This document shows, one piece after another, positions 2,825 to 21,810 of a stretch of 25,864 nt of DNA. The stretch comes from a virus. The stretch spans positions 1-25,864 of IMG/VR virus record IMGVR_UViG_3300025646_000322; one strand, 5' to 3'. The notes under the pieces are model-generated. The model was not told the DNA's origin. It saw nothing but the letters and a program-made list of their open reading frames with translations, and did no database searches. A program made the position numbers and the translations under genes. The number at the start of each line of letters is the position of its first letter. Position 1 is the stretch's first letter.

Positions 2825-4357
2825 ATGTCAGACGCAGCAAGAATGCTGGCTGCCTTCGAGGGTTCGAAGGTTGCCCACGGCACGACGAAAGTCGGAAGGA
2901 CCGGGCGCACAGGGAAGGCAGAGGCGGATAGCCGGATCGTTCGCGAGCCGCTGACCGCTGCGAAGATCGAGGCGCACCTGAGCGGCGGCCTTGGTGTCGG
3001 TGCCATTCCGATCAACGCCGACAACCAGTGCAAGTGGGGCGCGCTGGACATCGATGTCTATGACCTCGATCACAAGGCCCTGCAGGAAAAGATCCAGAAG
3101 CTCAAGCTTCCGTTTGTTCACTGCCGAACCAAGTCCGGCGGGGCGCATCTATACCTATTCTTGGATCAGTTCTACGACGCCAAGGATGTGCGCGAGTTTC
3201 TAACAGAGTTCGCGATTGCGCTGGGCCACAGCGGCTGCGAGGTTTTTCCGAAGCAGGACACGATCCTGTCCGACCGGGGCGATGTAGGCAACTTCATCAA
3301 CATGCCCTACCAGAATGCAGAGATGACCATGCGCTACGCCTTCGACCAGAACGGCGAGGCCATGGAACTCAGTCAATTTCTTGACGCTGTCGAAGCCAAG
3401 CGGGTCACGCTGTCCGACCTTGAGGGCATCCAGCTTTCGAAGAAACGAAAGTACTTCACCGACGGGCCGCCCTGCCTCGAGCATCTCTTTGCCGACGGCC
3501 CGGTGTCGGTCGACCGCAACAAGACGCTGTTCAACTGCGGGGTCTACTGCCGGAAGAAGTGGCCGGACAAATGGGTTGAGAACATGGAGGACATGAACCG
3601 GCGGCTGTTCGTCGATCCGCTCGGCGCCACAGAAGTATCCGGGGTGCAGAAGTCTCTGGAGAAGAAGACCTACGGCTACACCTGCAAGGACGAGCCGTTC
3701 AAGAGCCACTGCGATGTGCAGCTCTGCCGCACCCGCGCCAACGGGATCGACAGCAACAGCCCGGACATGCCAAAGCTCGGGGGCTTGACCATCCTGATGT
3801 CGGAGCCGCGGCTCTATTTTATGGATGTCGACGGCCACCGCATCCAGCTCACCACCGAGGAGCTACAGAGCCAGAACCTTTGGCAACGGGTGGTCATGGA
3901 GCAATCGACGATCATGCCGCCCAAGATCAAGGAGATGGACTACCAAGGCAAGATCGCGCAGATGCTGCGGGATGCCACCCGGCTCGAGGCCCCGGAGGAA
4001 CTGACTGTGCGCGGCCAGTTCAAGGAGGTCCTGCGCCAGTACTGCACCAGCCGGATCCGGGCCATGGAACCTGCCGAGCTAAAGATGGGCAAGCCGTGGA
4101 CCGAGAACGGCCGCACGATGTTTACGATGCCGGGGCTCGAAGAGTTCTTGCGTCAGCGGCACTTTAACTACCGCAGCAGGGCCGAGATCCAAGAGCATCT
4201 GAAAGCGATCAACGGATCCGAGAACTGCCACGGCATCAAGAATTACTACCATGATGACGGCCAGAGGACCTCGGTCCGCGTGTGGTGGGTGCCGGCATTT
4301 GAAGAAGATGAGGTCAGCCTCGATGTGAAGGAGATTGAAAATGACGTCCCGTTCTAA
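2825..4357 (+). CDS. Archaeo-eukaryotic-type primase (AEP, TOTE-like) with SSB-like C-terminal tail
   Basis: This 510-residue protein should make primers for DNA synthesis. The catalytic AEP palm is visible: GALDIDVYD (residues 72-80, metal-binding Asp75 and Asp77), the nucleotide-binding CRTKSGGAHLYLF (100-112, Ser104 and His108), EVFPKQ (139-144) and GNFINMPY (155-162). These match the primase domain of the TOTE conflict group and related phage primases. A second domain begins PPCLEHL (215-221), continues RNKTLFNCGVYCRKKWPDKW and ends with C287-x8-C296-x4-C301. With C217 this could bind iron-sulfur or zinc, as in PriL-type primase domains. The last residues, IENDVPF, resemble an SSB tail. 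The ribosome site GGAG (2815-2818) precedes the ATG at 2825. AEP family is confident; the metal site and tail role are inferred. Confidence 0.85.
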   Translation: MSDAARMLAAFEGSKVAHGTTKVGRTGRTGKAEADSRIVREPLTAAKIEAHLSGGLGVGAIPINADNQCKWGALDIDVYDLDHKALQEKIQKLKLPFVHCRTKSGGAHLYLFLDQFYDAKDVREFLTEFAIALGHSGCEVFPKQDTILSDRGDVGNFINMPYQNAEMTMRYAFDQNGEAMELSQFLDAVEAKRVTLSDLEGIQLSKKRKYFTDGPPCLEHLFADGPVSVDRNKTLFNCGVYCRKKWPDKWVENMEDMNRRLFVDPLGATEVSGVQKSLEKKTYGYTCKDEPFKSHCDVQLCRTRANGIDSNSPDMPKLGGLTILMSEPRLYFMDVDGHRIQLTTEELQSQNLWQRVVMEQSTIMPPKIKEMDYQGKIAQMLRDATRLEAPEELTVRGQFKEVLRQYCTSRIRAMEPAELKMGKPWTENGRTMFTMPGLEEFLRQRHFNYRSRAEIQEHLKAINGSENCHGIKNYYHDDGQRTSVRVWWVPAFEEDEVSLDVKEIENDVPF

Positions 4358-4553: not shown

Positions 4554-6069
4554 CCGCTTGATCCTTGGACCGCCCGGCTGCGGCAAGACACACACCCTGA
4601 TCGAGATCGTCAGAGAGGCTCTAGCACGGGGCATACATCCGTCTCGCATAGCCTTCGTGTCGTTCACCACCAAGGCCGTCAGAGAGGCGCTGGACAGGGC
4701 CTGTGCTGAGTTCAACCTCGAGCCCAAGCAGCTCCCGCATTTCCGCACCCTGCATGCCACGGGCTACCACGCGCTAGGCTTACAGCGGACCGACGTCATG
4801 GCGCGGACGGACTACAAGCAGCTTGGTGAGATCCTCGGGGTTGAGTTCCAAGCAGCGGACCGCACGTCGATGGACGACGGGATCGTCTTGCCGACGATCG
4901 GCGGGAGCGGCGCCAAGTATCTGCAGGCAGCTATGCGGGCGCGCTACCGGGAGGTCTCGCTCGAGCGGGAGTACAACGACATGGAGGACTACTCGCTCAG
5001 CTATCCCAAGCTTGTGCAGGTCCACCAGCAGAACGAAGAGTACAAAGCCAAGATGGGCAAGTCTGACTTTGCCGACATGATCGCCCTGTACCCTACCATG
5101 GCTGAGCCTGTCTACCTCGACCTTTTGATCGTGGACGAAGCGCAGGATCTGACGCCGCTGCAATGGACCATGGTCCGACACATGGCGGAGACAGCCGAGG
5201 AGGTGGTGATCGCAGGTGACGACGATCAGGCGATCCACCGCTGGGCTGGGGTGGATGTGCGCCGGTTCCTCCGCTGCTCGGAAAACATCGAGGTCCTGTC
5301 GCAGTCCTACCGCCTGCCCCGCCCTGTGTGGCGGCTGGCCAAGAGCATCACAGCAAGGATCAAGGACCGACTGCCGAAGGAGTTCTATCCCCGGGACGAC
5401 GAGGGCTCCGTCCAGCAGATCATGCGCCTTGACGATGCGCCCTTGGACCGAGGATCGTGGACCATCATGGCGAGGGTCAACTCCTTCTGCTATGAGTTTG
5501 CCGACAAGCTTGAGCAGCGAGGCTACTACTACAGCGTCAAGGGGAACCCGTCGGTTAGCCCGTCGCTGTTGCAGAACATTGAAACATGGAAGCAGCTTTC
5601 CAACGGCGGCAGCGTAGGGCTGCGCTTTATCCGGGATTTGTACGGCGCAGTGCCGAAGACGGGCGAGGGCGCCATGGTACGACGCGGTGCTACCAAGCTT
5701 CTCGACGCCGCCGACCCCGAAGCCCTGATCGGCTTCGACGATCTGGTCGAGCACTACGGCTGGCTGGGGCCGCAAGACCAGCATGTTTACGAGGTTCTTC
5801 GTATCAGTACAGACGAGGCGCGCTACATCCGAGCGCTGATCGCCCGGGGCGAGGACCTGACCAAAGAGCCGAGGATCAAGGTCAGTACGTTCCATGCCAT
5901 GAAGGGCGGGGAGGACGATAACTGTATCGTGTACCTTGGGTCGACATGGTCGTGCATCGAAAGCAAGTTCCCGGACGATGAGCTGCGCGCTCTTTATGTG
6001 GCTGTCACCCGGACCAAGGAGAACCTATACTTGCTCGAGTCGGACAAAAAATACAGGTACTATCTATGA
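4534..6069 (+). CDS. UvrD/Rep-type superfamily 1 DNA helicase
   Basis: This 511-residue protein carries a full set of SF1A helicase motifs: Walker A GPPGCGKT (12-19), motif Ia VSFTTKAVREAL (42-53), Walker B/motif II VDEAQD (200-205), motif III GDDDQAIHRWAG (228-239), motif IV QSYRLPR (257-263), motif V VSTFHAMKGGE (450-460) and motif VI YVAVTRTKENLYLL (488-501). It should unwind duplex DNA 3'-5' using ATP, probably ahead of the phage polymerase. At 511 residues it is shorter than bacterial UvrD (about 720), lacking much of the accessory 1B/2B domains, as is usual in phages. AGGAGAG just upstream supports ATG 4534, inside the AlpA-like gene. It overlaps the next gene by ATGA. Confidence 0.93.
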   Translation: MHPIPNSRLILGPPGCGKTHTLIEIVREALARGIHPSRIAFVSFTTKAVREALDRACAEFNLEPKQLPHFRTLHATGYHALGLQRTDVMARTDYKQLGEILGVEFQAADRTSMDDGIVLPTIGGSGAKYLQAAMRARYREVSLEREYNDMEDYSLSYPKLVQVHQQNEEYKAKMGKSDFADMIALYPTMAEPVYLDLLIVDEAQDLTPLQWTMVRHMAETAEEVVIAGDDDQAIHRWAGVDVRRFLRCSENIEVLSQSYRLPRPVWRLAKSITARIKDRLPKEFYPRDDEGSVQQIMRLDDAPLDRGSWTIMARVNSFCYEFADKLEQRGYYYSVKGNPSVSPSLLQNIETWKQLSNGGSVGLRFIRDLYGAVPKTGEGAMVRRGATKLLDAADPEALIGFDDLVEHYGWLGPQDQHVYEVLRISTDEARYIRALIARGEDLTKEPRIKVSTFHAMKGGEDDNCIVYLGSTWSCIESKFPDDELRALYVAVTRTKENLYLLESDKKYRYYL

Positions 6070-6338
6070 CCAGAGACGAGATCCTCGACACCGCCAAGCA
6101 TTTGATCTCAGGACCAAGGGCCACGGACTACGGTGATGCGCGGGACAACTTCGACCGTATTGCCGCTGGCTGGAATATCATCATCGAGAACCTCGACGGC
6201 CCGGTCACGGCCAAGCATGTGGCCCTGATGATGGACTGGGTGAAGACGGCCCGGTTGCTGGAGACAATCGATCACGCGGACTCGTGGATTGACAAGTGCG
6301 GATACAGCGCGCTTGGCGGTAGCTTTAGTAAGGGATGA
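6066..6338 (+). CDS. DUF6378-like phage protein
   Basis: This 90-residue protein has the pattern I associate with DUF6378: RATDYGDARDNFDRIAAGW (residues 18-36), then HVALMMDWVKTARL (51-64) and HADSWIDKCGYSALGG. Conserved Tyr/Gly/Asp, Asn-Phe and Asp residues suggest a small helical bundle. The family is common next to nucleotide and replication genes in phages, but its biochemical role is not known to me. It begins at an ATGA overlap with the helicase stop and ends 1 nt before the polymerase start, so it sits in the same translational unit. Confidence 0.75.
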   Translation: MTRDEILDTAKHLISGPRATDYGDARDNFDRIAAGWNIIIENLDGPVTAKHVALMMDWVKTARLLETIDHADSWIDKCGYSALGGSFSKG

Positions 6339-6339
6339 C

Positions 6340-8244
6340 ATGCAGGACTCTCTGTTCGAAAAAGACCATTACATCGCCCTTCAGATGAATGAAGGCGCGG
6401 AGCTTGAGTGGCATATGCCCTCTGAGTATCCGGATCTTACAGGGTATAAGCAGATTGCGGTCGACCTCGAGACCTGCGACCCGCGCCTGACCACGCTGGG
6501 TCCCGGCTGGGCTCGCAAGGATGGGTTCATCGTCGGCATCGCCGTGGCTGCCGGGGACGAGTCTTGGTACTTTCCGATCAGGCATGAGAACGGCCACAAC
6601 CTCGACCCCAAGATCACGATGAAATGGCTCAAGACGCAAATGGCCACGCCGCGGATCGACAAGATCATGCACAACGCCACCTACGACTTGGGCTGGCTTT
6701 GGGCGGAAGGAGTTGATGTTCAAGGCCGAATCATTGACACGATGATCACCGGGGCTGTGGTGGACGAAAACCGTTGGTCCTACAGCCTGAACAACCTCGG
6801 CAAGGATTACCTCGAGGAGCGCAAGAACGAAAAGCTGCTGCGCGTGGCGGCCGAGGAGTGGGGCATCGACGCCAAGGCGGAGATGTGGAAGCTGCCACCC
6901 AAGTATGTCGGGCTCTACGCCGAACAGGATGCGGCCATGACGCTGCGCCTGTGGGAGCGCCTCAAGATCGAGCTCGACAAGCTGGACCTCTGGAGTATCT
7001 GGGAGCTGGAGACGTCGCTGATCCCGATGATGCTTGATATGCGGAAGATGGGCGTTCGGGTGGATCTCGACGGCGCGGAGAAAGCGCGACGTGTTCTCCG
7101 CACCCGCAAAAAAGAGGTCGCGGACTTCATCAAGGACAAGAGCGGCGTGGCCATCGAACCTTGGGCCGCGGCATCCGTGCAGAAGGTCTTCGAGGCGCTG
7201 AACCTGCAGTACCCCAAGACCGAAGCCGGGGCGCCGTCGTTTACCAAGCAGTTCCTGTCCGCCCACCCACACGAGGTCGCGCAGGCGATCGTGCGGCTGC
7301 GGGAGACAGACAAGGCTGACAGCACGTTCATCGACACGATCCTGAAGCACGAGCATGAAGGCCGAATCCACACAGAATTTCACCAGCTCCGCAGCGACGA
7401 AGGCGGCACGGTGACCGGGCGGTTCAGCTCTTCGAACCCGAATCTCCAGCAGATCCCGGCCCGTGATCCGGAGATCAAGAAGATGATCCGGGGCCTGTTC
7501 GTCCCGGAGGATGGGACACAATGGGGATCGTTCGACTACTCGTCGCAGGAGCCCCGGCTGCTGGTCCACTTCGCCGCCAGTATCCGCGGACAGAACCGGC
7601 ATGACATGATCGACAGCGTGGTTCAAGCGTACCACGAAGGCGACGTAGACCTGCACCAGATGGTGGCAGACTTCGCCGGCATCTCCCGCAAGGAGGCCAA
7701 GGTGGTCAACCTTGGGATCATGTACGGCATGGGCAAGGGCAAGCTCGCAGGCCAGCTCGGTATTACTGAGGCGGAGGCGGGCGACCTGCTGTCTACGCAC
7801 CACGAGAAGGTGCCGTTCGTCAAAGGACTGGCCGACCTCGCCATGCAGCAAGCAGCCAAGCACGGGGTCATCCGGACCCTGCTCGGGCGCCGCTGCAACT
7901 TCCATCTCTGGGAGCCCCGGACTTTTGGCTACAAAAAGCCGCTCCCCTTTGAGGAAGCGATGAAAGAGTACGGCCAGCCCCTGACAAGAGCGTTTACTTA
8001 CAAGGCCTTAAACAAGCTGATCCAAGGTTCGGCGGCCGACCAGACCAAGAAGGCGATGGCGGACTGCTATGCAGAGGGCCTTCTTCCTATGCTCACGGTT
8101 CACGATGAGCTATGCTTCTCCGTAGAGAGTTCGGAGCAGGCGGCCCGGATCAAGGAGATCATGGAGACCGGCCTCTCCGACATCCTCAAGGTCCCATCCA
8201 AAGTGGATGCGGAACTGGGAGCCAACTGGGGAGAGGTCGGATGA
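6340..8244 (+). CDS. Family A DNA polymerase with 3'-5' exonuclease
   Basis: This 634-residue T7/Pol I-type replicative polymerase keeps all key motifs. Exonuclease: AVDLETCD (Asp42, Glu44), HNATYDLGWL (Asp116), YAEQD (Tyr193, Asp197). Polymerase: TGRFSSSNPNLQQIP (359-373), motif A SFDYSSQEPRLL (Asp399), O-helix motif B with Arg450, Lys454 and Tyr462-Gly463, and motif C TVHDEL (His588-Asp589-Glu590). The residue aligned with E. coli Phe762 is Leu458 (NLGIMYG). There is no 5'-nuclease domain and no obvious DnaJ insertion between the domains. ATG 6340 is preferred over an upstream start at 6289 because it follows the preceding stop by 1 nt, has AAGGG (6330-6334) upstream, and avoids a 50-nt overlap. 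It should replicate the phage genome with the SSB, primase and helicase of this cassette. Confidence 0.95.
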   Translation: MQDSLFEKDHYIALQMNEGAELEWHMPSEYPDLTGYKQIAVDLETCDPRLTTLGPGWARKDGFIVGIAVAAGDESWYFPIRHENGHNLDPKITMKWLKTQMATPRIDKIMHNATYDLGWLWAEGVDVQGRIIDTMITGAVVDENRWSYSLNNLGKDYLEERKNEKLLRVAAEEWGIDAKAEMWKLPPKYVGLYAEQDAAMTLRLWERLKIELDKLDLWSIWELETSLIPMMLDMRKMGVRVDLDGAEKARRVLRTRKKEVADFIKDKSGVAIEPWAAASVQKVFEALNLQYPKTEAGAPSFTKQFLSAHPHEVAQAIVRLRETDKADSTFIDTILKHEHEGRIHTEFHQLRSDEGGTVTGRFSSSNPNLQQIPARDPEIKKMIRGLFVPEDGTQWGSFDYSSQEPRLLVHFAASIRGQNRHDMIDSVVQAYHEGDVDLHQMVADFAGISRKEAKVVNLGIMYGMGKGKLAGQLGITEAEAGDLLSTHHEKVPFVKGLADLAMQQAAKHGVIRTLLGRRCNFHLWEPRTFGYKKPLPFEEAMKEYGQPLTRAFTYKALNKLIQGSAADQTKKAMADCYAEGLLPMLTVHDELCFSVESSEQAARIKEIMETGLSDILKVPSKVDAELGANWGEVG

Positions 8245-11492: not shown

Positions 11493-13205
11493 TTATTCCC
11501 CCAATCGCAGGATGTCTTCTTCCGTTAGGACAATGGGCGCTGTTCCGGGAGCCGATGTCGCTGGCGCAGGTGCGGCGGCAGGCGCCTCTGGGCGCTGGAC
11601 CTGCATACCCGGAATGCGGCTGGCCAGCATCTCAAACTCGGTTTCAACCTCCCGCCGGTTTTGTTGCAGGATCACGTTAACCTCGCGAATGGCTTCGCGG
11701 AGCTCTGCTTCACTGCGGAAGGCTCCAGAAGCAAGGCCGTTGATGTTCAGGCCCAGCCCGTCTTTGTCGTCTGTGACGATGCCAAGCAATTCGGCAACGC
11801 GGCGGCGGTCGCCGTCCGAAATCGTTCGGCCGCTTTCACCAAGTAGCATAGGTGCAAGCTGCGCGGCGAGAGTACGCTGGATCACATCAAAACGCTGCGC
11901 CGCACTGGCCCGCGGATTATCCCTGTCGACGCCCAAAGCATTTGCCACCGGCGTGGGCAGCGCCGCAGCCGCCCGGGTCAGGAAGCGACTGGCCGAGCCT
12001 TCAAACCCGGCGACGTCTTCCATGTCCAAAAGGTTTTCGGCCTCAGCGCTCAGTCCAAGCAAGCGGTCGCTTTCATCCATGGCGTTGTTATACGTCATGA
12101 TGATGCGGTCCTGCTCGCCTGCGATGATGGGCGTTGCACCAGAAAGTGTCCCCGGCAGCGTCGGCATAAACTGCGGGATGGTGCCGAAATGTTTGGTTTC
12201 AAGGTTCGAAGTGCTTTCGCCATACAGCTTGGACAGCGGATCTGACTGAGACTTGTACACTTCCAAAGTAAGAGCGGCTTCGGTCGCCTCACGGCCTGTC
12301 GCGGTTTCCCGCTTAGCTTGAAGACCTATGAGCATAGCGTTAGAAATACGCTCGGCCACGGACCCCGGACCACCAATCGCGCGGCCGAGGGCCACCCCGG
12401 TGATGGCGTCGTTGAGCTCGTCAACGGTCGCGGAGGCAGGCATCTCGCGTCCCGTAATCTCAGAAACAACTTTGCGGAAGCCTTCCCGAGTATTGGGAGC
12501 CCCAGCAGCCTCAGTAACCGCGCGCTGCCGATCCTCAGGTGTTGCCTCTGGATCAGACAGTGTGCTTTCCAGCTGACTAAACTGCGCCTGCGCTTCTTTG
12601 TTTTTACCCAGCCTTTCCCGTACCAAGGGCGCGATATCCTGTGCCGTGTCTCTTGGACGAGGTGTTGGCGTCTGTGTAATGTTCACAGGTCTGCCCTGAG
12701 CCTGATTTTGAGTGGCAGCAAACTGCGTACCAAGAGACGGCTCTGCCTGACCCTGACGGATAGCCTCAAGCGCGACATCTCCGCCGACATTCATGCGCAC
12801 AGGCTGGGGCTGTGCCATCTGCATGGGCGGCTGCTGAGGCTGTGCCATCTGCATGGGAGGCTGCTGAGGCTGTGCCATCTGCATGGGAGGCTGCTGAGGC
12901 TGTGCCATCTGCATGGGTTGTGGGCGTGGCTGCGGCTGCGGGAACATCCCGGGCACGATGTTGGGGAGTGGCACCTGCGCCATCGGTGGAGCCGCCGGGC
13001 GCATCTGCGGCGCCATCATATTCGGCATCATCCCGGTCATCTGAGGTGCCATGGCGCGCGGCCGGGCTGCTGCCATAAGTTCCTGAGACGACGCCATGAT
13101 GCCTTGTGGCATACGGCGATCCACGCCCGCCATCTCACGGAGCTTGTTTCGAGCGGCTTCCGACTTCCGGCGGAACAGGGCGCGATTGTAAACGTCGTCC
13201 TGCAT
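11493..13205 (-). CDS. Internal virion-type protein with Met/Gln/Pro repeat region
   Basis: This is a 570-residue protein. Residues about 50-140 are low complexity and rich in Met, Gln, Pro and Ala, including about 3.6 copies of the decapeptide MAQPQQPPMQ. The rest is mainly helical, with ATPEDRQRAVTEAAGAPNTR, ASAAQRFDVIQRTLAAQLAP and LLGESGRTISDGDRRRVAEL. The last motif recurs, as I recall, in putative internal virion proteins of marine podoviruses. The C-terminus is Ala/Pro-rich and ends TEEDILRLGE. AAGGTGAT lies close before ATG 13205. It sits between two other internal-type proteins and probably assembles with them in the capsid as part of the ejection apparatus. No enzyme motif is seen; the function is inferred from neighbours and composition. 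Confidence 0.7.
   Translation of the reverse strand: MQDDVYNRALFRRKSEAARNKLREMAGVDRRMPQGIMASSQELMAAARPRAMAPQMTGMMPNMMAPQMRPAAPPMAQVPLPNIVPGMFPQPQPRPQPMQMAQPQQPPMQMAQPQQPPMQMAQPQQPPMQMAQPQPVRMNVGGDVALEAIRQGQAEPSLGTQFAATQNQAQGRPVNITQTPTPRPRDTAQDIAPLVRERLGKNKEAQAQFSQLESTLSDPEATPEDRQRAVTEAAGAPNTREGFRKVVSEITGREMPASATVDELNDAITGVALGRAIGGPGSVAERISNAMLIGLQAKRETATGREATEAALTLEVYKSQSDPLSKLYGESTSNLETKHFGTIPQFMPTLPGTLSGATPIIAGEQDRIIMTYNNAMDESDRLLGLSAEAENLLDMEDVAGFEGSASRFLTRAAAALPTPVANALGVDRDNPRASAAQRFDVIQRTLAAQLAPMLLGESGRTISDGDRRRVAELLGIVTDDKDGLGLNINGLASGAFRSEAELREAIREVNVILQQNRREVETEFEMLASRIPGMQVQRPEAPAAAPAPATSAPGTAPIVLTEEDILRLGE
12811..12917 (-). repeat. Tandem 30-bp repeat coding for MAQPQQPPMQ
   Basis: Units at 12811-12840, 12841-12870 and 12871-12900 plus a partial copy to 12917 are nearly identical; the first differs at one base (GCGG versus GAGG). 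The unit is a multiple of three, so copy-number change would alter length of the disordered region without breaking the frame. Confidence 0.92.
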
Positions 13206-18434: not shown

Positions 18435-19061
18435 CTACGGTTTGATTTCAACCCAGATCGTGTTCACATCCGGAATGATGTTCCCGTACACTAGCACATC
18501 TCCAACGGCAGCAACAGCGGAGATACCAGTGACTTGAACAACGGCTTGACCGATAACCGTGGCGTTTCCAACTTGGCCATCGGCCGCGTTTGGCGCGACC
18601 ACCGGAATGACCGCCGTCGTGCGCTGGGTGACAACACCAACCTCACCAGTGGCCTCGACGCCTGTGGGAGATACCACCGCCGTACCAGTGACGGTGACAA
18701 CGCCGAGCTGCCCTGCTGCTGAAAGGCCGGTAACGGGAATGGATGCCGAGCCCGAGATCGTAACCGTCCCGACCTCACCAGTGGCCTCGACCCCCGTCAA
18801 GGTTACAACGGCGGCACCCGTAATCGTGACCGCGCCAACTTGCCCATCCGCCTGAAGACCAACGAGCGTGATCGAAGCGTCACCCGTGGCGGTGACAACG
18901 CCAACCTCACCCGTGGCCTCGACCCCCGTTACTTGGACCTCGGCACTCGCTGCAACGGTGACAGAACCCACCTGACCGGTGGCTTGAACCCCGGTCACCC
19001 AAATCGTGCCCTCGGGAAGGGCTGCTAGTGGGGATGCTGCGATGGGGCCGAAACCGAGCAT
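18435..19061 (-). CDS. 22-residue-repeat beta protein of the tail-fibre region
   Basis: This is a 208-residue protein. After MLGFGPIAASPLAALPEG come eight repeats of about 22 residues with the core TGVEATGEVGVVTATG (residues 19-196) and a short C-terminus (NTIWVEIKP). Even-numbered units read TGVEATGEVG and odd-numbered ones read GLQADGQVG or GLSAAGQLG, so the true period may be 44. The pattern of hydrophobic residues alternating with Gly and Ala suggests a beta-solenoid or stacked strands. GAGGT precedes ATG 19061. It lies between a fibre protein and a tail-assembly chaperone, so a fibre or spike component is likely. Confidence 0.72.
   Translation of the reverse strand: MLGFGPIAASPLAALPEGTIWVTGVQATGQVGSVTVAASAEVQVTGVEATGEVGVVTATGDASITLVGLQADGQVGAVTITGAAVVTLTGVEATGEVGTVTISGSASIPVTGLSAAGQLGVVTVTGTAVVSPTGVEATGEVGVVTQRTTAVIPVVAPNAADGQVGNATVIGQAVVQVTGISAVAAVGDVLVYGNIIPDVNTIWVEIKP
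18474..19007 (-). repeat. Eight 22-residue repeat units within the tail-fibre-region protein
   Basis: Eight units, each about 66 bp, code for variants of TGVEATGEVGVVTATG; one has an extra residue. Copies differ more at DNA level than those of the 51-residue repeat protein, suggesting an older expansion. Confidence 0.8.
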
Positions 19062-19069
19062 GGCTTACC

Positions 19070-19507
19070 TCAATGTTTGGCGGGCCACGTCACGGAATAC
19101 GGGAAGCCCTCTTGTGCAGTAATATCACGAAGCGCCTGACGATACACCTCCCACTCCATAGGGATGTTCGTGCCGCGCTCGGTGTGCATGATGACGATCC
19201 AATCTGTCTCAGAGAGCAGCCGATCTCGATGCGCGCGAACATTAACAGATGCCGTTTCGATAGGCAGTTCAAGAACTCGCCACACCTGCGTCCACGTCCT
19301 GTCAATGTTCTGCACAGATTGAGAGACGCGATGCGTCTTGCTATCCACCGCAGGAGCAGGCACCGCCTGCACGGGATAAACGTCATACGCCGCTAGAACA
19401 CTGTCAGGCACCTGCTTCGGGAAGCTGGTGTGCGGATTGTCACGGCGCAGTTCGCCGAGCGTGTAGGGATATTTGCTCGGCTGGCCGTTTGTTACTTTGA
19501 CGAACAT
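19070..19507 (-). CDS. Phage tail assembly chaperone-like protein
   Basis: This 145-residue protein ends with the pattern of the Phage_tail_APC family: RAHRDRLLSETDWIVIMHTE (residues about 90-109), EWEVYRQALRDITAQEGFP and YSVTWPAKH. The family is thought to act as fibre assembly chaperones that help trimeric fibres fold. The N-terminal half (KVTNGQPSKYPYTLGELRRD) resembles other fibre-linked proteins. AAGGAG precedes ATG 19507. It directly follows the 51-residue-repeat protein and precedes the 22-residue-repeat protein, the usual place for a fibre chaperone. Domain recognition is good; the client protein is inferred. Confidence 0.8.
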   Translation of the reverse strand: MFVKVTNGQPSKYPYTLGELRRDNPHTSFPKQVPDSVLAAYDVYPVQAVPAPAVDSKTHRVSQSVQNIDRTWTQVWRVLELPIETASVNVRAHRDRLLSETDWIVIMHTERGTNIPMEWEVYRQALRDITAQEGFPYSVTWPAKH

Positions 19508-19522: not shown

Positions 19523-21130
19523 TTAGAGGTCATAGGAAAAAACAGCGTCTCCAACGCTGTCAACGATATACATCTTCGTGCCATCGTCTTTGAAGAATAA
19601 GTCTCTCGGGAGTGTCGCTTGCGCCGCCACGCTAAAGTTCTGCACATAAGAGGCCGTGCTGATGTCCCATGCAGACGATAGGCTGTATTCATTCACAGCG
19701 TCTGCATTGTTGCCGACGATATACATCTTCGTGCCATCGTCTTTGAAGAAGACTCCTGTCGGGTTTGTCTCTTGCGCCGCCACGCTAAAGTTCTGCACAT
19801 AAGAGGCCGTGCTAACGTCCCATGCAGACGATAGGCTATATTCGTTCACATCGACTCCAGTGCTGCCGACGATATACATCTTCGTGCCGTCGGGTTTGAA
19901 GAAGACGCCACCCGGGTTTGTCTCTTGCGCCGCCACGCTAAAGTTCTGCACATAAGAGGCCGTGCTGATGTCCCATGCAGACGATAGGCTGTATTCATTC
20001 ACATCGTCGCCGCTTTGGCCGGTGATATACATCTTCGTGCCGTCGGATTTGAAGAAGACGCCTTGCGGGTTTAGCTCTTGCGCCGCCACGCTAAAGTTCT
20101 GCACATAAGAGGCCGTGCTAACGTCCCATGCAGACGATAGGCTGTATTCATACACAGCGTCGCCGGTTTGGCCAACGATATACATCTTCGTGCCATCGTC
20201 TTTGAAGAATAAGTCATTCGGGGCTGTCTCTTCCGTCTCCACGCTGAAATAGTCAGTGGCCGGATATGTGAACGACGCCGTGCTGATGTCCCATGCAGAC
20301 GATAGGCTGTATTCGAAAACAGCGTCCGATTTAGAGCCGCCGACGATATACATCTTCGTGCCATCGGATTTGAAGAAGACGCCACCCGGGCCTGTCTCTT
20401 GCGCCGCCACGCTAAAGTTCTGCACATAAGAGGCCGTGCTAACGTCCCATGCAGACGATAGGCTGTATTCATTCACATCGACTCCAGAGCTGCCGACGAT
20501 ATACATCTTCGTGCCATCGTCTTTGAAGAAGACGCCTGTCGGGGTTGTCTCTTCCGTCGCCACGCTAAAGTTCTGCACATAAGAGGCCGTGCTAACGTCC
20601 CATGCAGACGATAGGCTATATTCATTCACATCGTCTCCAGAGCTGCCGACGATATACATCTTCGTGCCGTCGGATTTGAAGAAGACGCCTTGCGGGACTG
20701 ACTCTTGCGCCCCTATGCTAAAGTTCTGCACATAAGAGGCTGTGCTGATGTCCCATGCAGACGATAGGCTGTATTCATTCACATCGTCGCCGCTTTGGCC
20801 GGTGATATACATCTTCGTGCCGTCGGATTTGAAGAAGACGCCATTCGGGGCTGTCTCTTGCGCCCCTATGCTAAAGTTCTGCACATAAGAGGCCGTGCTA
20901 ACGTCCCATGCAGACGATAGGCTGTATTCATTCACATCTTGGCCGGTTCGGCCAACGATATACATCTTCGTGCCGTCGGGTTTGAAGAAGACGTCTGCCG
21001 GGGATGTATCTTGCGCGGCAACATAAAACCAATTTATCGGCGACCCATTATACGCCGCATTAGCCAAATCCCAGCCGCCAGTCGGCACACCACCAGCCGC
21101 CGCTTGTTGCATCAGCCTCGCAATGCTCAT
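19523..21130 (-). CDS. 51-residue-repeat, propeller-like protein (probable receptor-binding fibre)
   Basis: This 535-residue protein is made of a 43-residue N-terminus and nine full plus one partial repeat of 51 residues (one has 56). The core of each unit is [14 protein letters not shown], then [12 protein letters not shown] and [16 protein letters not shown]. The spacing and Asp-Gly-Thr turns fit a beta-propeller blade. Variation is concentrated at two places per unit: the residue after FFK (Asp, Ser or Pro) and the loop after YIVG. ATG 21130 is used because it overlaps the preceding stop (ATGA); a frame reaching 21163 would overlap that gene. A chaperone-type gene follows. A host-binding fibre tip is the best guess; no enzymatic motif is present. 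Confidence 0.72.
19526..21001 (-). repeat. Near-identical tandem 153-bp repeats (9.5 copies)
   Basis: The array codes for the 51-residue units. Long stretches are identical between units; for example 19962-20062 and 20742-20842 match over 101 bp at an offset of 780 bp (five units plus one 15-bp insertion). Copies at the left edge and the one with the 5-residue insertion diverge most. Such identity implies recent duplication or conversion between units. Confidence 0.93.
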
Positions 21131-21810
21131 GACAGGTCTTGCCCCGCAGTGAAGCCATACCAAATCGTGCCGCCGTCATGCGTGAAGAACACGAACACAT
21201 CGACATCGCCGGAACCAGTCGAGAGTGTCGGTGCAGTGGCAGCGGCCCAATCAACCGAGGCAGGCCAAGTGATCGTGCGAGCCGTGCTGTCCTGCGTTAC
21301 CTTGAGCGTGAAGCCGTAGGCGGTTCCCGAAGCTGGCGGATTGGAGAATGTCGTGCTGGTCACATCCTCCGACAGGCTTAGAGAGAAAACATTCCCTGCT
21401 TCACAGTCTATGGTTAAAGCCCCAGAAGAAGAAGCGACAGAAACAAACGTTTCATTGTAGGACTTCGCTTGGAACTCTTCAGGAGCAGAAAAATCCCCTG
21501 AATCATTAACCTCGAGGAAGTGTGCCGCAGTAGCTGTAATGAACACCGAGGCCGAGCCTGCGAGATTAAGCGGGGAACCGGAGTTTGAACTCTCCGTGGC
21601 ACTACGAGTAAGTGTGGTCCCGCTGGCAGTGTAGGTGCCGGTGCCAATCTCCCAAGAAGAGCCCTCTTCAATCGTGTACCGGACAACCTCACCATCCAGA
21701 ACCCCGGCGTCCGCGAAGGATTGGTAGCCTGCTTCAGCCGACCCAAGGGTGATCGTCCCCGTGCCGGTAGTGGCCGTGGTCATGCGGGCGCGGTTGACGA
21801 GCGTCACCAT
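21127..21810 (-). CDS. Beta-rich virion / fibre-type protein
   Basis: This is a 227-residue protein rich in Ser, Thr and Gly. It starts [20 protein letters not shown], continues [20 protein letters not shown] with a Ser/Asn-rich linker, and ends [20 protein letters not shown]. This arrangement (short N-terminal strand region, central TxSGTTLTR, C-terminal TWPASVDWA) is common among phage tail or fibre proteins, and I recall similar ones near fibre genes in marine phages. GGAG lies 8 nt before ATG 21810. It precedes and overlaps the repeat protein, so it may be its base or attachment partner. Specific role is not shown. Confidence 0.68.

Follow-up and report, generated by a model that had tools for sequence, protein, structure and literature searches.

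The window, as the whole 25,864-nt stretch analysed here is called (IMGVR_UViG_3300025646_000322, positions 1 to 25,864), contains a minus-strand gene composed almost entirely of near-identical repeats, and this raises the question of what such a protein does and how it comes to differ among related phages. An earlier note, made from the sequence alone, had proposed a propeller-like protein in which blade shuffling or copy-number change diversifies one face of a binding protein without any reverse transcriptase. The ORF starts at an ATG at 21130, has its final sense codon at 19526 and encodes 535 aa. TRF identified 9.5 copies of a 153-bp unit at 19542-21016 with 84% matches. The DNA identity among the eight regular 51-residue units was 84-94%, far beyond chance and higher than the 60% median blade identity above which propellers count as highly repetitive (PMC9218822). 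The longest exact repeat, 101 bp, was found in blade 2 (20742-20842) and blade 7 (19962-20062), both on the minus strand, with an offset of 780 bp, that is, five blades plus 15 bp; the note had given this identity correctly. Its count of nine and a half 51-residue units agreed with TRF, but the unit profile showed a half blade, four blades, a hybrid blade with a 5-residue insertion, four blades and another half blade, which makes ten blades once the split N- and C-terminal halves are counted. Two other repeats were observed in the window. A 30-bp tandem repeat at 12803-12917 (3.8 copies, 97% matches) encodes (PQQPPMQMAQ)n in the minus-strand ORF 11493-13205, and a 13-bp partial repeat at 19304-19316, inside the chaperone gene described below, was put down to chance.

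The whole protein was modelled by AF2 with a pLDDT of 94.3. Residues 19-291, comprising the first propeller, were modelled alone with a pLDDT of 93.6 and a pTM of 0.90, and exactly 20 strands (5 x 4) were obtained. The best structural match of this model was 3qqz (Z 21.8, 221 of 243 residues, 2.8 A), followed by the glutaminyl cyclase 3mbr (Z 20.8, 209 of 236 residues, 2.6 A), and both ranked above NHL and Pizza proteins. By sequence, the closest solved chain was the YVTN propeller 1l0q (E 1.3e-12). Tachylectin-2 was absent among the structure matches listed for propeller 1, an absence that does not argue against a lectin role. Models and structure matches agreed on the propeller-like fold that had been proposed and, together with the half blades at both ends, pointed to radial four-stranded blades with split-blade closure. 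The protein is therefore predicted to form two tandem five-bladed beta-propellers, each ring closed by a split blade.

In this predicted layout, all on the minus strand, a conserved, low-confidence N-terminal leader of 17 residues (21080-21130) is followed by propeller 1 (about residues 18-280, 20291-21079), with an N-terminal half blade, four full blades and a C-terminal half, and by propeller 2 (about residues 281-535, 19526-20290), which is built in the same way. Unit 5 is a hybrid of 56 aa (20225-20392) that joins the C-terminal half of propeller 1 to the N-terminal half of propeller 2, and its 5-residue insertion is explained by its position at the junction between the two propellers. Five blades per ring and two rings in the window were assigned because relatives carry one, two or three five-blade blocks: a linker was found at the hybrid position in L027, three blocks in L037, L066 and L081, and one block in L195, L241 and L253, while linkers separate the five-blade blocks in L066, L081 and the CRP phages. 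A single ten-bladed ring was ruled out by the relatives with one and three propellers and by the model of propeller 1, which folds alone. The propeller protein matched PHROGs families of unknown function only. Confident-looking Pfam matches at 19526-21130 to PFO_beta_C (1.5e-11), DUF3297, Cas9_PI_C and similar families were judged spurious because their scores are sums of repeated short matches, and such families on a propeller gene are a hazard for automatic annotation.

Blade number was compared in 86 distinct homologous arrays whose ORF is complete within the contig. Ten blades were scored in 55 arrays, 15 in 13 and five in 10, so that 78 of the 86 had exactly a multiple of five. Four more (L183, L184, L290 and L303) were miscounted, because divergent blades leave gaps of at least two units, and four were irregular: L003 and L071 with eight blades, L242 with four and L330 with three. 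Among cultured phages, five blades were found in ICBM2 and 15 in each of CRP-2, CRP-9 and CRP-13. Under this 5/10/15 rule, variety does not usually come from copy-number change; the idea that copy-number expansion is the main process was rejected, and with it the copy-number half of the earlier proposal. The comparison among relatives that the note had suggested gave a divided answer, since the repeat number was nearly always a multiple of five and the loop residues differed.

Most of these arrays come from metagenome assemblies, in which near-identical repeats can be misjoined, and short-read assemblers might have scrambled or collapsed the repeats of co-occurring strains. L003 corresponds to the window array without blades 8 and 9, and its flanks are identical to those of the ten-blade contigs. 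Exactly two blades (306 bp) are absent across an 80-bp identity zone at 19924-20003 (minus strand), the crossover site of the deletion, as assembly error would predict, and the array arose either by recent recombinational deletion or by assembly collapse. L003 and L242, two of the four irregular arrays, share one assembly, and the odd blade of L009 lies at a contig end. However, the same arrays recur in several samples (L016/L017/L318-L323; the window array in L002, L162 and L163), the isolates ICBM2, CRP-2, CRP-9 and CRP-13 obey the multiple-of-five rule, and the CRP isolates show hypervariable propellers and lost blade order. The ICBM2 study credits PacBio and Illumina work (PMC6775973). Assembler collapse may account for the irregular arrays L003, L071, L242 and L330 but not for the isolates, and as a general explanation we consider it improbable. 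Within the window population, the array was identical across contigs save for one silent SNP, plus the L003 deletion. In L330 (1-4207), three blades (1, 2/9 and 10 of the L017 type) were found within the fibre domain, reflecting deletion or assembly collapse.

The propeller gene is flanked upstream by a tail-fibre ORF of 227 aa (21127-21810, minus strand; PHROG tail fiber protein, 6.5e-18) and downstream by a tail-fibre assembly chaperone (19070-19507, minus strand; Phage_tail_APC, 8.7e-19), and its ATG overlaps the stop of the fibre ORF (ATGA). The minus-strand virion genes are ordered as SU10-type adaptor proteins, fibre ORF, propeller gene, chaperone and more structural genes. The ICBM2 homologue is likewise flanked by a fibre ORF and a chaperone. 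This location, in a tail-fibre module with a cognate chaperone, is that of a phage receptor-binding protein. Further along the window, 18435-19061 (minus strand) encodes a protein of 208 aa with degenerate repeats of about 20 residues (VTGVEATGEVGVVTVTG...) and without a family match, and L243 encodes a similarly repetitive protein at 5894-6568. At 2825-4357 (plus strand) there is a primase with a TOTE-type archaeo-eukaryotic primase domain (PF22548), adjoining SNF2 and UvrD helicases and a family A polymerase.

Comparison of homologous loci revealed insertion and replacement of the whole module. The homologous fibre domain is split by the propellers in L004, L005, L017, L244 and L334, the insertion falling in one loop between window residues ~172 and ~176. 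A shared short leader precedes 15, 10 or five blades, a LamG lectin in L243, which sits in the propeller slot after the same leader (PF13385, 1.2e-19), or another domain in L250. Furthermore, the place of the ICBM2 propeller is taken in ICBM1 by a collar-domain protein, and Lentibacter SH36 is the host of both phages. The domain swaps after the leader and the difference between ICBM1 and ICBM2 form the pattern of an exchangeable host-recognition module. The window leader also recurs before quite different domains in L031, L241, L243, L250 and L253; preceding propellers and other domains alike, it is perhaps a tail-attachment plug. Many single-cell genomes of SAR11 and some MAGs of Patescibacteria also contain relatives of the array (L402, L403, L405, L408-L418 and other genome_contigs loci), which may be captured phages or host genes.

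Instead of being a pure binder, the propellers might work enzymatically on host envelope material, in the manner of a lactonase, glutaminyl cyclase or depolymerase. At the level of family scores, SGL reached 38.4 bits against a cut-off of 26.3 and the ICBM2 homologue matched Lactonase, and the structure match 3mbr is itself a glutaminyl cyclase. However, every blade repeats the most conserved residues (FFKxDGTKMY, LSxAW), whose role seems structural; a single conserved set of active-site residues was not observed, and in L243 the same slot is occupied by a lectin. We consider an enzymatic role very improbable.

The other half of the earlier proposal, blade shuffling, was borne out by arrays whose blades had been copied and reordered. 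In the Antarctic pair L010/L017, 108 of 640 aligned codons, including those of the N-terminal segment, differed by amino acid, while the flanks were 99.5% identical over 6 kb. In L006/L016, the 5' flank and propeller 1 were 100% shared and propeller 2 was different. Blade copies lying several blades apart were found in L017 (155 and 146 nt) and L004 (152 nt). Identical tracts of at least 60 nt were present in 5.8% of within-array blade pairs and 0.3-0.4% of pairs between arrays, about a fifteenfold difference, and between arrays the long identical tracts fell regardless of blade position. Among 16 Antarctic arrays, blade likeness was ~0.83 at the same position and 0.82 at other positions, and within-array blade identity equalled that between arrays, which fits shuffling as well as independent amplification. 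In the same set, 30 of 128 nearest-neighbour blades were at the same position, compared with ~15 expected, and three close pairs (L030/L035, L032/L036 and L039/L046) kept their blade order 8/8. This residual position signal and the order-keeping pairs indicate that the extent of shuffling differs among lineages, from strong to weak. The propellers of CRP-9 and CRP-2 showed 32-53% aa identity, whereas their linkers and C-terminus showed 74-94%; blade order was retained mainly in propeller 1 between these two phages and not at all between CRP-9 and CRP-13. As judged by sequence comparison, the arrays are mosaic, and little of the blade order is left in one Antarctic group or in CRP-2, CRP-9 and CRP-13.

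An ordinary, recently amplified propeller would also have near-identical blades; its loops would vary because they are unconstrained, and the differences among phages would be old divergence plus ordinary mosaicism. Recently amplified propellers are widespread (PMC9218822), and pS was 0.139 within the window array and 0.76-0.99, near saturation, to relatives. Preserved blade order in some pairs and loop pN/pS values mostly below 1 outside the D-A loop are also in line with this explanation. Amplification explains the likeness within an array but not the replacement inside near-identical flanks seen in L010/L017 and L006/L016, nor the non-adjacent blade copies of 146-155 nt, and pN/pS values above 1 in the D-A loop (window 5.9, Antarctic set 1.3) also speak against it. 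We regard amplification alone as unlikely and prefer an explanation by recombination, both of blades and of modules.

The D-A and B-C loops share one face because of propeller topology. In the window, the mean amino-acid entropy was 1.05 bits in the eleven D-A and B-C loop columns and 0.21 elsewhere; the respective values were 1.31 and 0.32 in the Antarctic set, and 2.01 and 0.94 over all arrays. This concentration was matched by only 2 to 4 of 20,000 column permutations (2 for the window), and of 51 register rotations the true register alone attained the contrast. Amino-acid changes were also enriched in the D-A and B-C loops in five close pairs (odds ratios 2.6-6.9). Strand D (columns 38-45) had zero nucleotide changes among the eight regular blades, and the codons of invariant residues were nearly invariant. 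Several different amino acids were found at each of columns 1, 3, 9, 19, 20 and 22. The sites to which the note had limited variation, namely the residue after FFK, the loop after YIVG and the turn before the next Pro, do vary, but columns 3, 4, 17, 23, 24, 26, 35 and 46-51 vary too. Its single variable face holds for the D-A and B-C loops, where changes are concentrated, but not for the residue after FFK (column 9, in the A-B turn), which lies on the face opposite the other hot spots and is invariant in the Antarctic relatives. Diversifying selection on the loops is suggested; the B-C loop pN/pS was below 1 in both the window and the Antarctic set, and in most of the sets compared, and since the ratio is clearly above 1 for the D-A loop alone, relaxed constraint may suffice.

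A diversity-generating retroelement (DGR) could also mutate loops, and the hot-spot codons are often compatible with changes from A-rich codons. However, 14 of 41 variable nucleotide columns had no A in any blade, and majority-A columns varied no more (7/35) than others (34/118). No RVT_1 reverse transcriptase was found in 20 records, some of them fragments, and no template repeat was found in the window. A DGR was therefore rejected as the diversifier, its likelihood being close to nil, and the part of the earlier proposal that dispensed with reverse transcriptase stood.

Among the nearest known counterparts is Gp45, the receptor-binding protein of Staphylococcus phage phi11, with five-bladed, N-strand-closed propellers and the glutamine cyclotransferase 3NOL as best structural match (PMC4901313), an enzyme of the same type as 3mbr. 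Gp45 is trimeric, with one propeller per chain, a long stem and a tower, whereas the window protein has two propellers and its relatives one to three. Near-identical blades and, among the named relatives, Gram-negative marine hosts also set the present family apart. No Gp45-type trimeric stem was found in the same chain, where only ~17 low-confidence residues precede propeller 1, and the upstream fibre ORF may serve as the stem. For highly repetitive propellers, the survey of Pereira and Lupas (2022) puts the emphasis on repeated amplification from single blades and on a continuum of numbers (PMC9218822). As in the window family, their blades are near-identical, synonymous differences within one array are few and each family has a preferred blade number, but here the number is almost always a multiple of five and blades recombine inside syntenic phage loci. 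In Enterococcus phage EfV12-phi1, the tail-fibre adhesin is reported to change by internal duplication (PMC6365445, citing Tetart et al. 1996). This too is repeat-based change of a tail-fibre host-recognition gene, but in that account copy number changes under selection, while the window family has a fixed number and changing content. DGR-diversified phage receptor-binding proteins (PMC6199706) likewise have variable positions on the presumed binding surface, but here no reverse transcriptase, template or A-directed pattern was found. The literature search yielded no direct precedent for hypervariable or repeat-shuffled phage propellers, and no description of fixed five-blade rings with exchanged blades and rings.

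Taken together, this marine phage gene probably encodes a mobile tail-fibre receptor-binding module of two predicted five-bladed propellers, one that diversifies as blades and modules recombine while ring closure locks the blade number. We infer the role in surface binding and adsorption. The variable face of each ring would consist of its D-A and B-C loops and would most likely bind a cell-surface glycan or protein. Homologous recombination would copy blade segments within one array, related phages would exchange blades or whole propellers in the same way, and the whole module would be swapped in and out of the fibre. Point changes in the loops would be tolerated or favoured, and arrays without five blades per ring would be eliminated by ring closure, so that number is conserved and content changes. 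A more far-reaching version, which we put forward only tentatively, is a retroelement-free combinatorial system in which a shared pool of interchangeable blades is reassorted into five-blade rings to give new binding faces. Such a pool would resemble cassette assembly in some vertebrate repeat receptors.

Several hypothetical proteins of marine phages in culture, namely ICBM2 gp51, CRP-2 gp51, CRP-9 gp42, CRP-13 gp43 and CRP-738 gp33, are likely propeller adhesins, and short-read assemblies of blade arrays call for long-read verification. Five blades per ring is a testable rule. Loop changes on one face are what recognition of bacterial surfaces would lead one to expect, and, if the proposed mechanism is true, blade recombination under a ring-closure constraint would join retroelements, inversion, point mutation and duplication as a route to variation in host recognition.
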